Shown here one piece after another: positions 21,956-33,215 of a DNA stretch of 33,215 nucleotides. The stretch is from Microcaldota archaeon (GTDB taxonomy: Archaea; Micrarchaeota; Micrarchaeia; Burarchaeales; Fermentimicrarchaeaceae). The stretch's first letter is position 1, and every line of letters starts with the position of its first letter. Below the pieces are notes generated by a model. It was not told the origin of the DNA, did no database searches, and saw nothing but the letters and a program-made list of their open reading frames with translations. The stretch is taken from NCBI GenBank assembly GCA_026396385.1, contig JAPLWV010000013.1, positions 1 to 33,215 on the forward strand. Reading direction: 5' to 3'. Both the position numbers and the translations under genes were made by a program.

Positions 21956-22582
21956 ATGAGTGAACTTTTGATTCAGCAAGAAAAGTACCTTGAAGCTGGT
22001 ATACATATCGGTACGAAGATAAAGACGCCAGACATGAACCAGTTTATATACAAGGCAAGGCAGGACAGGCTTTACGTTCTGGACTTGAAGAAGGTTGATG
22101 AGAGGATAAGGGTTGCCGCTAGGTTCATCTCTCGCTACAAGCCAGAGGAAATTCTGATAGTTGCATCAAGATTGTATGCAAGCAGCTCTGCGAAAAAGTT
22201 CTGCGAGCTTGTCGGATGCAAGGTTGTTAATGGGAGATTCATTCCCGGCATACTCACTAATCCTGCAAGGGAGGATTTCTCAGAGCCAAAGCTTCTTTTC
22301 ATCTCAGACCCGAAGAACGAGAGGCAGGCCATAAAGGAGGCAAACCGCATGGGCATACCGATAATTGCCCTTTGTGATACGGACAACTCTACGAAGTTTG
22401 TGGATTGGATTATTCCGTGCAACAATAAGGGAAGGAAGTCGCTTGCGCTGATTTTCTACCTTCTCGTAAGGGAAGTCAAGAGGGCGAAGGGAGAAATTGC
22501 TGAGGGAGAAGAGTTCAAGCTGAAGCCTGAGGACTTTGAAGTACTTAAAGAAGAGGGGGAAGAGCAGCAGCCCTCAGACTGA
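21956..22582 (+). CDS. rps2: Ribosomal protein uS2
   Basis: YLEAGIHIGTKIKTPDMNQFIYKARQDRLYVLDLKKVDERIRVAARFIS...GIPIIALCDTDNSTKFVDWIIPCNNKGRKSLALIFYLLVRE. Confidence 0.97.
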   Translation: MSELLIQQEKYLEAGIHIGTKIKTPDMNQFIYKARQDRLYVLDLKKVDERIRVAARFISRYKPEEILIVASRLYASSSAKKFCELVGCKVVNGRFIPGILTNPAREDFSEPKLLFISDPKNERQAIKEANRMGIPIIALCDTDNSTKFVDWIIPCNNKGRKSLALIFYLLVREVKRAKGEIAEGEEFKLKPEDFEVLKEEGEEQQPSD

Positions 22583-23827
22583 GTCTCTGATACAATCCTT
22601 CTTTAAGAATTGGTCGCTTACGCTGTTGCATATGGTGGAGTTCTTGTTCTTTATTGCAGCATTCTTGTAGCACTCATCCTTCCAGGTCTGCTGCGTTATG
22701 TTATCGCATGTGGATGGCGCGTAGGGTTGGTTGTACATTACTATAGTGAAGCATGTAGACTTCCTGTAGGTGTTTTCTATGTTCGAGCATGCGGCTGGGT
22801 TGTGGGCGGATTTCGCGATATCGAGTATGCAGTTATCTCGCTTTAATAGGTCGGATATCCTGCTGCAGAGTGAAACATCAGCAGTTACATTGGCAACCTG
22901 GTAGTAGCAGATATCCTTGTCGCTTATGCATTCATAGCAGGTTATGTAGGAGCATATATTCGCATTTCTGCTCTTGAATGCTACATTGGTATAGCAGCGA
23001 TCCTGGTAGAGGTGCGTGCTTATGTTCGAGCATAGTGAGGAGTTCATGTGCTCACTTGCAAATACTTCAAGGCAGGAGTCCCTTTGTAGGTAATCCGTAA
23101 GCTCGTTGCAGAGAGTATAGTTGTTGGTTATCCTTGTCAGGCAAAGATACTTTTGATAAACTACCGAAATCTTTTCGCAGAGAGAGGAGTTGGATTCAAG
23201 GAAGGCGAAGTATTTGAAGCAGTCGTCTCTCAGATTAGAGTCGGATGGCAGATTGCAGAGTGGATAGCTGCCCTTGTTCTTCGCGAAATCAACATAGCAG
23301 TTGTCTATAAGCGATATATTATTCAGCTCAAGGCAGATGGAGTAGTTGCCCTTCGCCTTCGCCATGCACAGCTTGGAATCATAGCCCGCTGTCATGTTCT
23401 CGCAGTATACTGTGTCATCGCCAAGCTCTAGGCGGCACTGCCTCCTCAGGGAGTTACTCTCAATTTTGTTGCATGTCGCTATTCCGACCCGAGGAGCTAG
23501 CGTGTGGTAGCAGTCGTCCCTCGTGTCACCTACATTTATTCTCCCGCATAATGAGGAATCATTCAGCTCAATAGCAAATATGAGATTGCAGCTGTCCCTA
23601 AGCTGAGTCGAGAATATGAAGGAGCAGGAAGTCAGGTTGTTCTTTGTTATTGCGTCATTATAATAGCACGTATCCCCATTTACGACATCCTTCATCTCGG
23701 CGCATGAAAGCACCGTGACTGGTGTTACATTAGTCTGGTTCGTTGGCTGCTCTGCCGGTGGAGTGTAAGAAACGCAGCCGAAGATGAGCAGAGCTACCAG
23801 CATGAAAATTGCGATTCGGAGTTTCAT
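22574..23827 (-). CDS. Predicted secreted lipoprotein with ~13-14 tandem ~26-aa two-cysteine repeats
   Basis: Signal peptide and lipobox MKLRIAIFMLVALLIFGC; repeats such as SLCSNISTHLYQDRCYTNVAFKSRNANICSYI... with C-x(~11-12)-C spacing. Confidence 0.85.
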   Translation of the reverse strand: MKLRIAIFMLVALLIFGCVSYTPPAEQPTNQTNVTPVTVLSCAEMKDVVNGDTCYYNDAITKNNLTSCSFIFSTQLRDSCNLIFAIELNDSSLCGRINVGDTRDDCYHTLAPRVGIATCNKIESNSLRRQCRLELGDDTVYCENMTAGYDSKLCMAKAKGNYSICLELNNISLIDNCYVDFAKNKGSYPLCNLPSDSNLRDDCFKYFAFLESNSSLCEKISVVYQKYLCLTRITNNYTLCNELTDYLQRDSCLEVFASEHMNSSLCSNISTHLYQDRCYTNVAFKSRNANICSYITCYECISDKDICYYQVANVTADVSLCSRISDLLKRDNCILDIAKSAHNPAACSNIENTYRKSTCFTIVMYNQPYAPSTCDNITQQTWKDECYKNAAIKNKNSTICNSVSDQFLKKDCIRDSV

Positions 23828-23867: not shown

Positions 23868-23938
23868 CAAAGTCAGCTTACCCTCTTGTCGTCATCTAGC
23901 TTTTGGCTATCAGCAATACCTCGTATCATCACTGGACT
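23868..23938 (-). ncRNA. Box C/D guide sRNA (candidate)
   Basis: Minus strand: AAGTCCA-GTGATGA(C)-TACGAGGTATTG-CTGA(D')-TAGCCAAAAGCT-AGATGA(C')-CGACAAGAGGGTAAG-CTGA(D)-CTT; flanking AAG/CTT; TATA-like ATACTTAAA ~25 nt upstream. Confidence 0.82.
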
Positions 23939-23976
23939 TATTATGAAGCCATCAGTTTAAGTATCTGTTTGCGGGG

Positions 23977-24441
23977 TTATCTCCTTGCCAGTTTTCTGAA
24001 CTCGACGCTTTGATATGGGTATACCACCCACCTCCTGGTCTCCTGCGCGAAAAAATCAGGCTTCAGCTTTGAATGCGGCTTGCAGTGCAGCGTTGCTATC
24101 TTGATGCTTTTGGCATGTTTCTCCAGCAATTTTTTTGCCAGCAGGAGGGTCCCGCCGGTATCTGCCACATCGTCAACAAGAAGTACATTGCCGCGAATAA
24201 ATTGAAGGGGCGGTTTTTGGCTTACCACCGGCTTTCTTCCCCGCTTGTCACCCGTGTAGTAATCTATCTTGAATGCGTAAAGCTTTTTTACTCCGAGCCT
24301 GTCGCTGAGGTAAACAGCCGGCACCAGTCCTCCTCTCCCTATGCCGACTATGCAATCCGGCTTGAATCCGCTCTTTATGATGCTGGCAAGCTTGTCGCAC
24401 ATCTCCTCGGTTTCAGAAGCAGTGAGTCGCAGGTATTCCAT
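23977..24441 (-). CDS. Purine-type phosphoribosyltransferase family protein
   Basis: CIVGIGRGGLVPAVYLSDRLGV and PRPP loop VLLVDDVADTGGTLLLAKKLL. The ORF-track N-terminal extension to 24546 is tRNA-Gln sequence. Confidence 0.93.
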   Translation of the reverse strand: MEYLRLTASETEEMCDKLASIIKSGFKPDCIVGIGRGGLVPAVYLSDRLGVKKLYAFKIDYYTGDKRGRKPVVSQKPPLQFIRGNVLLVDDVADTGGTLLLAKKLLEKHAKSIKIATLHCKPHSKLKPDFFAQETRRWVVYPYQSVEFRKLARR

Positions 24442-24467
24442 ATGGCTAGCCTCATTTGATGGAAGTA

Positions 24468-24560
24468 TAGCCCCGGTCGGATTCGAACCGACGTGGGTGG
24501 GTCCAAAGCCCACCATCTTACCAGGTTTCATCAACCTCTTGGCCACTAGATGACGGGGCT
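24468..24560 (-). tRNA. tRNA-Gln(TTG) with ~21-22-nt intron in the D-loop (~24521-24542)
   Basis: Acceptor AGCCCCG/CGGGGCT; stem GTGGG/CCCAC with loop CTTTGGA; D arm ATCT-AGTGG[CCAAGAGGTTGATGAAACCTGG]TA-AGAT; T arm GTCGG-TTCGAAT-CCGAC. Confidence 0.88.
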
Positions 24561-29224: not shown

Positions 29225-29393
29225 TGGGGCCAGAGGGATTTGAACCCTCATTAACAGGTGTCTCATAAAGCATCTCATCTTTCCTCAATGCTCCAATTCT
29301 AAATCATTCTCTTTCGAGTCATCACACCTGTAACAATGCTCCTTTACAAAAGGAACTGGAGCCTGTTGTTCTGCCAAGTTATACCATGGCCCC
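29225..29393 (-). tRNA. tRNA-Trp(CCA) with ~96-nt 37/38 intron (~29260-29355) containing a box C/D guide
   Basis: Acceptor GGGGCCA/TGGCCCC; stem ACAGG/CCTGT; loop CTCCAG-[intron]-A; T arm GAGGG-TTCAAAT-CCCTC; 73 nt mature; intron has GTGATGA (box C). Confidence 0.92.
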
Positions 29394-30647: not shown

Positions 30648-31502
30648 CTAAGTCTGGCTGACCTGAAGACACTGTTCTTTAATGCTTTCGAGAGAGATGT
30701 AGGAGCAAAGCTGCGGGTTCTTCGTATCGCTTGCCAGCTGCATGTAGCAGGCGTCTTTAAGTGTGCCCGAAGGCATTGAAGCGCATGTGCTCGGGTCTTT
30801 GGAGTATACCGCAGCTATGTAACGGCATGCCTGCCTGCCCTGCGGATCGCTTATAGTATCGCAGCTTGCAGGGTCTATCCTGCCCGTCAGGCAGAATTGT
30901 CTGGTGAACTCTGTTGATACCTGGTTGCAGTAGGTTGTGTCATTCAGCTCCCTAACCATAGAGATTATACAGGCATCCGCCGCAGTTAGCTGGGCTCCGA
31001 GATCATCCGCAATCATCAGCCTGCAGAATGCCGCATCTTTGTTCTTGATGGCAAGCTGAGGGTATATCCGGTTCTTGCATGTGTTTCTCGAAACGTTCAG
31101 CACTATTGACTCGCAGATATCGGGCCTGCCCAGCGTTACTGCTATTCCTGACAAGCAGTTGCCCATTAGATAGCTTGAGTTGATTTTCATGCACATTGAG
31201 GAGTCATTAGTCCTCACCGCCAGTCTTGATAAGCACTCGTCCATCCCAGCTCCGGACAGTTTCATGCATATGGAGTAGTTCTCCGGGATGCCATTGCCTA
31301 ACAGCAACGTATAGCAGCGCTCTGCAACTGAGCTCTCATTTATCTCACCGCACTTGGATATGTTTGATGTTTCTGAAGCTACCATGAGCAGGCATCCGTC
31401 TTTCTGCGAGGGATCCCAGAGGTGGTAGCACCTGTTGGGTGACGTGTCAACAAAGATACAGCCAGTGAGGAATAAGAGGAAGAAAATTAGGTGTTTTCTC
31501 AT
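30648..31502 (-). CDS. Second predicted lipoprotein with ~10 two-cysteine ~26-aa repeats (paralogous architecture to 22574-23827)
   Basis: MRKHLIFFLLFLTGC lipobox; repeats e.g. SMCMKINSSYLMGNCLSGIAVTLGRPDICESI. TATA (TTTATATA on minus) ~25 nt upstream of ATG 31502 supports this start. Confidence 0.83.
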   Translation of the reverse strand: MRKHLIFFLLFLTGCIFVDTSPNRCYHLWDPSQKDGCLLMVASETSNISKCGEINESSVAERCYTLLLGNGIPENYSICMKLSGAGMDECLSRLAVRTNDSSMCMKINSSYLMGNCLSGIAVTLGRPDICESIVLNVSRNTCKNRIYPQLAIKNKDAAFCRLMIADDLGAQLTAADACIISMVRELNDTTYCNQVSTEFTRQFCLTGRIDPASCDTISDPQGRQACRYIAAVYSKDPSTCASMPSGTLKDACYMQLASDTKNPQLCSYISLESIKEQCLQVSQT

Positions 31503-31754
31503 AGAAGTAATTGTATAGGTTGTGTAATATATAAATTTTTCTGAGATATGCGGGTAGTTGAGACACTGCCTTTTGGAATTGCTGCCGGTGGACTTCAGCA
31601 CGAAAGCTGCGGGACGAGTAGAGCTTCAGCTAGGAATCCGAATTTGGAAAGAATTAGAGAACAGCCGAGCCTTAATGGGTGGTGGATTAAAGTAGTAGGC
31701 CCGGCCATTCGAGCATGAAGTGAAAGGCCGTGATTTTTGGAATGACCATAGCTC

Positions 31755-32698
31755 CTTTTAGCAAGTGCAGAAAGGCTTTTAGTAGTGGACGGACTCACGG
31801 ATCGCTTATGCTTTCCGTTTACATCCCCACCCTATCAACAGAATCTGCTATTCTGGCCTTGGACTGCCTCGTTTTGAGAATGGCTTCGACCTTAGATGCT
31901 TTCAGGTCTTATCCAGTGGCGCGTGGCTGCCCGGCGTTGCTTTGCACAACCGGTATACTAGAGGCGCCGAATCCCCGTTCCTCTCGTACTTAGGGATTCA
32001 TACTCTCAAGCAGTCGACACTCCTAGGAGATACTACCGAACTGTCTCGCGACGTTCTGAACCCAGCTCGTGTAGGTCTTTAATGGATGAACAACCCAACC
32101 CTTGGTGGCTCCTGCACCACCAGGATGACCTAGGCCGACAGCGATGTACCAAACCGCAAGGTCGATATGTACTCTCGCCTGCGACGAGCCTGTTACCCCC
32201 GGGGTAGCTTGTTTGTCAGCTTGGACCCTCAGCAAAAGGGATTCCAAGGTTCGTTAAGCCCCTCTTTCGAGTCTGAATTCCACGCTTTTAAGAATTCAGT
32301 CAGCCCTGCATTTGTCTTTAACCCTTACCAGCGGATTTCTGACCCGCCTAAGCAGAGCATTGGGCGCCCTTGTTTCCTTATCGAGGGCGTACCGCCCCAG
32401 CCAAACTATCCATCTGCAGATGTCCCCTTTCGGGTGAGGAACACAGCAATTGGAGAGCAGTGTTTCACTTTCGCATTCGCACCCCCCGCGAGGGATGTTT
32501 CGACGCTCCTGCTTACGCTGTGCAACAACCACCGTATCCCAACGACAGACTATAGTAAAGCTCCACGGGGTCTTCGTTTCCCCCTAGAAGTCCTCGGCAT
32601 CTTCACCGAGTAGTGAGTTCACCAGGTCCCAGGTAGGGACAGCGGGACGCTCGTTATGCCATTCATGCAAGCCACCAATTAAGCGGCGAGGTATTACG
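31755..32698 (-). rRNA. 23S rRNA, 3' exon (domains IV end to VI); 5' part beyond the intron is outside the window
   Basis: Minus strand contains CTTGCATGAATGGCATAACGAGCG, the peptidyl transferase region, AGTACGAGAGGAACGGGGATTCGGCG (sarcin-ricin loop) and the 3'-terminal CCACTACTAA. 3' end is approximate. Confidence 0.93.
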
Positions 32699-33215
32699 TC
32701 ATAGCCGAATTCCGTGCAGATTGAACAGCAATAAAAACCGCCTTTCCTTGTCAGGATGCGAGGTTCCTATCTTCCGATAGAATCCCAAAAGCGCATCCTT
32801 GCCGGAAATTGCGAGATCGAAATCAAATGTGTTCACATTTCTTTTTGGGCCGTATATGTTGGCATACAAAATCCCAAAATTCGAGCACATCCGAGCCAGA
32901 TCATTGATGACCGGGCATCCTGATTTTTCATGCCATGCCTGGTGAATCCGGATTCGCAGGCGCGGCCTTGTGGGAAATGTCCCATCAAGAAAACGCTCTA
33001 CGTGCGGAACCTCACCTTCTGCATCAAAAAATCCCCTCAAATACCATTTCTGCAGCTGTGGGTGCTTCCAGCATATCGCCGGAGTTTTCCACGGTGCCGA
33101 GCCTGTCGGATGCCCGAGCGCTTTCTGCAGCCTCATAAAAACGTCTTTCGAATAGACAACCAGCCTCGGAGTGTTTTTGTCCACTTTAAGGCGGATCTTC
33201 CTTTCAGGAAGACCA
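32699..33215 (-). CDS. LAGLIDADG homing endonuclease encoded in a 23S rRNA intron (N-terminus outside window)
   Basis: WYLRGFFDAEGEV motif; reading frame stays open to the window edge (GLPERKIRLKVDKNTPRLVV...); stop TGA (32699-32701) abuts the rRNA exon. Confidence 0.9.
   Translation of the reverse strand, partial: GLPERKIRLKVDKNTPRLVVYSKDVFMRLQKALGHPTGSAPWKTPAICWKHPQLQKWYLRGFFDAEGEVPHVERFLDGTFPTRPRLRIRIHQAWHEKSGCPVINDLARMCSNFGILYANIYGPKRNVNTFDFDLAISGKDALLGFYRKIGTSHPDKERRFLLLFNLHGIRL

Follow-up and report, generated by a model that had tools for sequence, protein, structure and literature searches.

Dual-guide box C/D sRNAs that act on rRNA are well described in archaea (Dennis et al. 2015, PMC4644070; Breuer et al. 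2021, PMC7994747): they carry the C, D', C', and D boxes and two guides with N+5 target geometry, and their genes are either tRNA-linked or self-promoted. The two guides of such an RNA typically address neighboring sites (PMC7994747), and helices H68-H71 of 23S rRNA, at the subunit interface, are a known archaeal methylation hot spot (PMC4644070). Location of an sRNA directly behind a tRNA is also a known arrangement (PMC3491384, PMC7994747). In tRNA-directed sRNAs, the second guide is usually empty (PMC7994747). Archaeal rRNA introns, of group I, are known at LSU 1923 and LSU 1931 (PMC6125680), in the same stretch of 23S rRNA that is considered below.

The DNA analyzed here is a 33,215-nucleotide stretch of a Micrarchaeota genome (hereafter, the window). 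Judged by its sequence, the segment 23873-23932 on the minus strand is a previously unlisted dual-guide box C/D sRNA gene. It shares with the described dual guides the order of boxes, the two guides, nearby targets in the H68-H71 region, the N+5 geometry, and a tRNA-linked or self-promoted gene; unlike in these RNAs, the D'-C' spacer in Micrarchaeota often folds into a closed hairpin, whose length varies, and the D guide is swapped between clades. The kind of RNA, an archaeal box C/D guide sRNA, is already known, but the family is new: neither a box C/D sRNA of Micrarchaeota nor a lineage-wide A1940 guide family in this group was found in the literature searched. We consider it highly likely that the locus makes a dual-guide sRNA directing 2'-O-methylation of C1920 and A1940 in 23S rRNA (Escherichia coli numbering), independently of the intron that adjoins one of the targets.

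The sRNA gene and its neighborhood

The 60-nt sRNA body, from C box to D box, was delineated by sequence and conservation. It is flanked by a phosphoribosyltransferase gene (Pfam PF00156) and an unnamed gene and reads, on the minus strand, GTGATGA-TACGAGGTATTG-CTGA-TAGCCAAAAGCT-AGATGA-CGACAAGAGGGTAAG-CTGA. In order of transcription and all on the minus strand, the elements are the C box GUGAUGA (DNA GTGATGA, 23926-23932), the D' guide (RNA UACGAGGUAUUG, 23914-23925), the D' box CUGA (23910-23913), a D'-C' spacer with the hairpin UAGC-CAAAA-GCUA (23897-23909), the C' box AGAUGA (23892-23897), the D guide (RNA CGACAAGAGGGUAAG, 23877-23891), and the D box CUGA (23873-23876). The D' guide pairs with U1936-G1945 of 23S rRNA (predicted target A1940) and the D guide with ACCCUCUU at 1919-1926 (predicted target C1920). 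A TATA-like element, ATACTTAAA (23956-23964, minus strand), is located 23 nt upstream of the C box and is identical in two relatives of the same genus (G003 and G004).

This organization agrees with that of box C/D RNAs in the following respects: a C box of the form RUGAUGA, a D box CUGA, and internal C' and D' boxes; guides placed directly upstream of the D and D' boxes, with the target pair at N+5 (A1940 for D', C1920 for D); and guides that are either conserved or co-vary with the target, with two exceptions (G090 and G064). The C' box of the window's genus, AGAUGA, is one base off the consensus; most other families have UGAUGA. The first-pass annotation, made from the letters of the window, had proposed an unannotated box C/D sRNA with an upstream TATA-like element. 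All four boxes, both guides, and the element are indeed present, and the sRNA has no Rfam match at curated cut-offs; Rfam matches in the window are 23S rRNA, SRP RNA, and a tRNA.

The spacer stem is UAGC/GCUA in the window's genome (G000) and in G004, and UGGC/GCCA in the three other members of the genus (G001-G003). The hairpins of these relatives are UGGC-GAAA-GCCA or UGGC-GUAA-GCCA, with one compensatory pair. Other families have longer stems, except that f13 and f9 have a link of 3-5 nt in place of the spacer hairpin.

In some relatives, the sRNA lies directly behind a tRNA (loci L007, L008, L010, L012, and L103). In G002, G007, G092, and G088, it starts a few nucleotides after a tRNA-like gene, mostly called or read as tRNA-Gln (ARAGORN in intron mode calls the one in G007 tRNA-Ser), and in G001 it follows tRNA-Gln by about 60 nt. 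The same linkage over a few nucleotides is known for N. equitans sRNA8 behind tRNA-Val (Randau 2012, PMC3491384), from which the present family differs in that the linked tRNA is mostly tRNA-Gln. The window departs further from that arrangement: a phosphoribosyltransferase gene intervenes between the sRNA, with its own TATA-like element, and a tRNA-Gln(UUG)-like gene (24468-24560, minus strand) that was read by eye and from the adjacency to the sRNA in relatives. The ancestral order would then be tRNA-sRNA, and the sRNA would have gained its own promoter after the phosphoribosyltransferase gene was inserted.

The tRNA-Gln(UUG)-like gene, missed by ARAGORN, has about 20 extra nucleotides in the D loop, possibly a non-canonical intron. 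Because the phosphoribosyltransferase ORF, as listed (23977-24546), begins inside this gene, its true start must be further downstream. The Rfam tRNA match (29225-29393, minus strand), for which ARAGORN made no call, spans 169 nt, so this tRNA probably contains an intron. Two Cys-rich proteins, which begin like lipoproteins and contain repeats that resemble each other, are encoded on the minus strand beside the sRNA (22574-23827) and beside the 23S rRNA gene (30648-31601); neither has a Pfam match.

The D' guide and its distribution

The D' target, located by guide complementarity, is UAAUACCUCG of the 23S rRNA (32687-32696, minus strand; E. coli 1936-1945). Here, the guide forms nine Watson-Crick pairs with AATACCTCG (32687-32695) and one G-U pair with T32696, as the first-pass annotation had it. 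The numbering of this pairing likewise upholds its hand-counted N+5 target, A1940, which is set by the D' pairing in all 15 genomes that were compared with a 23S rRNA. The numbering is anchored on the conserved GGUAGCG-UAAUACC segment, which in E. coli reads GGUAGCGAAAUUCC and carries m5U1939. It is independently supported because introns that we mapped after 1923 and 1931 coincide with the published archaeal LSU/1923 and LSU/1931 sites (PMC6125680). Searching the literature for A1940 of archaeal 23S rRNA returned nothing relevant; the exact A1940 or C1920 sites may have been predicted earlier in other archaea.

The sRNA is present in all five genomes of the genus, and in the four relatives of the window's genome (G001-G004), the boxes, the D' guide core, and the D guide core AAGAGGGTAA are all unchanged. 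A strict pattern comprising the C box, D' guide, and D' box, TGATGAN{2,8}AGGTATTNCTGA, was found in 151 of the 301 genomes of the class (Micrarchaeota), spanning at least 61 genera; the reversed control matched none of the 301. A sequence-only profile built from 28 members matched 191 of these genomes and 78 of the 126 genera (E up to 0.01); about one third of the class genomes had no profile match, some of them incomplete assemblies. TGATGA is invariant across the alignment of the 28 sequences, which were themselves chosen by the pattern. In two other archaeal phyla (371 and 398 genomes, 769 in all), the strict pattern yielded six matches, three in each phylum, all within long ORFs. Most of the matches listed in a wider pattern scan of genome contigs were chance hits in bacteria. 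At this stringency and among the groups searched, the sRNA family is restricted to Micrarchaeota. Absence of guide conservation in relatives had been named at the outset as evidence that would speak against the sRNA; the D' guide core is kept across the class.

The boxes are short and Rfam gives no match at curated cut-offs, so that a chance resemblance at 23873-23932, with no RNA gene, has to be weighed. It has practically no probability left: a search with the 22-nt motif TGATGANNCGAGGTATTNCTGA, allowing up to three mismatches, hit the window a single time and 100 shuffled sequences not at all, the D guide co-varies with its target (see below), and the class-wide conservation already refutes such a reading. 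The sRNA very probably directs two methyl marks on 23S rRNA, that at A1940 and the one considered next.

Variation of the D guide

Within the window, no target for the D guide had been found in the first pass. This was missed because the 5' exon of the 23S rRNA lies beyond the contig end, and the assembly holds only the 3' part of the gene; the observation stands for the window, but the guide is no orphan, its predicted target being C1920 within 23S ACCCUCUU. The target was read from the 23S rRNA of genus relatives: in G002 and G004, the guide AAGAGGGU pairs with 1919-1926 and places C1920 at N+5, with one mismatch at G1918. The D guide of the window has this mismatch as well, and its core comprises only eight pairs.

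The D guide co-varies with its 23S target across families. Three guide/23S allele pairs were found: AAGAGGGT/ACCCUCUU, AAGAGGA/UCCUCUU (in G017), and AGAGAGUC/GACUCUCU (in families f13, f9, and f19). When guides and alleles are cross-matched, the guides to GACUCUCU, which form 9-11 Watson-Crick pairs with that allele, retain 5 on the others; for the AAGAGGGU guides, the number falls from 8-9 to 5-7. The target nucleotide is C1920 or, in some genomes, shifted by one to U1921. There are two exceptions: G090 has a mismatch between the D guide and its own rRNA at the very nucleotide that is targeted, and in G064, the D guide has no match in H69.

In other clades, the D guide has been replaced. In genus g35 of family f18, it pairs with GAATGACGT just 3' of H71. 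Families f17, f7, f2, and f26 have D guides resembling GATCTTGAGTT, for which a target was sought in 23S and 16S rRNA and none was found. In G154 (L101 and L268), the D guide matches a tRNA-Leu(CAA)-like gene, binding its anticodon loop through 10 Watson-Crick pairs and one G-U pair, with C34 at N+5; in the other genomes with GATCTTGAGTT-type guides, tRNA-Leu(CAA) was not located with the pattern used. sRNAs with the same C34 aim are known (reviewed in PMC7994747), but their other guide reportedly has no target, whereas in G154 it is the conserved 23S A1940 guide. Taken across the sequences compared, the A1940 guide is the constant part of the Micrarchaeota family, the D guide being re-tuned to changes in H69 or replaced. 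Separately, genera g19 (L320-L323) and g95 (L326-L330) have the A1940 guide or a close variant together with unrelated D guides, AAAACTTCGTGT and AATTACGCTT; the latter could pair with AGCGUAAU at 1932-1939, overlapping the D' target.

In the mechanism that we propose, the expressed sRNA would assemble with L7Ae, Nop5, and fibrillarin, the D guide would bind 23S 1919-1926 in the 3' strand of H69, and the D' guide would bind 1936-1945 in the H69-H71 linker. The resulting sRNP would direct 2'-O-methylation at C1920 and A1940 and could also hold this protein-poor region of the subunit interface during folding. With guide sites only 20 nt apart, chaperone roles already proposed for archaeal dual guides (PMC4644070), and a few members mismatched at the target nucleotide (G090), the RNA might instead be an antisense or chaperone RNA that shapes H69-H71 via both sites, methylation not being the selected function. 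This we regard as very improbable, given that the N+5 nucleotide is Watson-Crick paired with the D' guide in all genomes compared and that the spacing between guide and box is fixed.

Introns at the guide targets

The D' target of the window abuts a 23S rRNA intron, of which the 3' part occupies 32697-33215 on the minus strand and the 5' part lies beyond the contig end. This intron carries a truncated LAGLIDADG homing endonuclease (frame 32699-33214; Pfam LAGLIDADG_3, PF14528, E=2.6e-5, above the cut-off). The endonuclease in the G011 intron after 1936 shares 51% identity with it. Endonucleases of this type are common in bulge-helix-bulge rRNA introns but are no requirement. When about 60 23S rRNA genes of the class were examined by split alignment, insertions were mapped after 1912, 1923, 1927, 1931, 1936, and 1938. 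Those after 1923 and 1931 are at the same positions as the published introns (PMC6125680), from which the window intron differs in its site, after 1936, and in the bulge-helix-bulge predicted in relatives. The insertions after 1927 (L235, L243, and L309) are very short, 36-39 nt, and adjoin larger introns. The D and D' targets flank 1927-1935, within this intron hot spot, and the location of the target beside an intron results from H69-H71 being a hot spot of both methylation and introns.

For the introns after 1936 in G011 and G081, the predicted junction is a bulge-helix-bulge: AGGUA (1928-1932) pairs with UACCU (1939-1943), and GCGU (1933-1936) pairs with ACGC, located a few bases before the intron end, with bulges on both sides. 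The window intron ends with ...TGACGT before AATACC, and its ACGU could form the same central helix, the 5' half lying beyond the contig end. Where relatives carry the homologous intron, its predicted 3' splice site falls inside the D'-paired segment, at A1937-U1939. The adjacency of guide target and splice junction that the first-pass annotation had noticed is real, with the distance corrected from 2 nt to 0-2 nt. The D' guide binds 1936-1945, so that its pairing and the predicted bulge-helix-bulge exclude each other. Other introns split the targets themselves: an intron after 1923 divides the D target in G039 and G056, and a 62-nt intron after 1938 divides the D' target in G095, all three genomes keeping the sRNA. 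Because the D' target bases either take part in the predicted structure of the splice site or are interrupted by an intron, guiding in intron-bearing genomes probably follows intron removal.

The start of the D' target at the splice junction, the use of D'-bound bases by the predicted AGGUA/UACCU helix in relatives with the 1936 intron, and the splitting of D or D' targets by introns could all be taken as signs of a tie between sRNA and intron, in which sRNA binding regulates, or is regulated by, 23S splicing in the window's genome. Such a tie is improbable. The sRNA is not intron-specific, because the intron-free members of the genus, G002 and G004, keep it, and dependence on the intron was rejected on this ground; the sRNA is also kept in genomes of families f13 and f9 whose 23S rRNA has no intron at this place, and conversely, G011, which carries the homologous intron, had no sRNA match in the profile search. 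Whether relatives lacking the intron keep the guide had been put forward as a check, and they do. Of the suggested link between guiding and splicing, the physical overlap of guide pairing with the predicted splicing structure stands, but no special link to the intron is needed to account for the gene. At least half of the Micrarchaeota sampled keep the sRNA, with or without an intron beside the target, which makes it a probable component of the normal ribosome-modification machinery rather than an intron regulator.

The 16S rRNA genes of G002 and G004 (L065 and L066) span about 2020 nt for a 1478-position model, which implies an insertion of about 540 nt in them; for the genome of the window, the 16S match stops near a contig end, at position 828 of the model.

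The guide RNP might act as a checkpoint or splint, its two guides fitting only spliced, ligated exons or bridging them, which we consider unlikely. If it did, binding would protect correctly spliced 23S rRNA and compete with the precursor splicing structure, coupling 2'-O-methylation to rRNA splicing as a single ordered process.

With the sRNA viewed as an intron-independent methylation guide, natural pairs of genomes with and without an intron through the guide target are well suited for testing in which order rRNA is spliced and methylated. The constancy of the A1940 guide across many genera contrasts with the fast guide turnover stressed in reviews. At the same time, the family presents a clean case of guide-target co-evolution and of a second guide that has been exchanged, rRNA being targeted in some members and tRNA in another.
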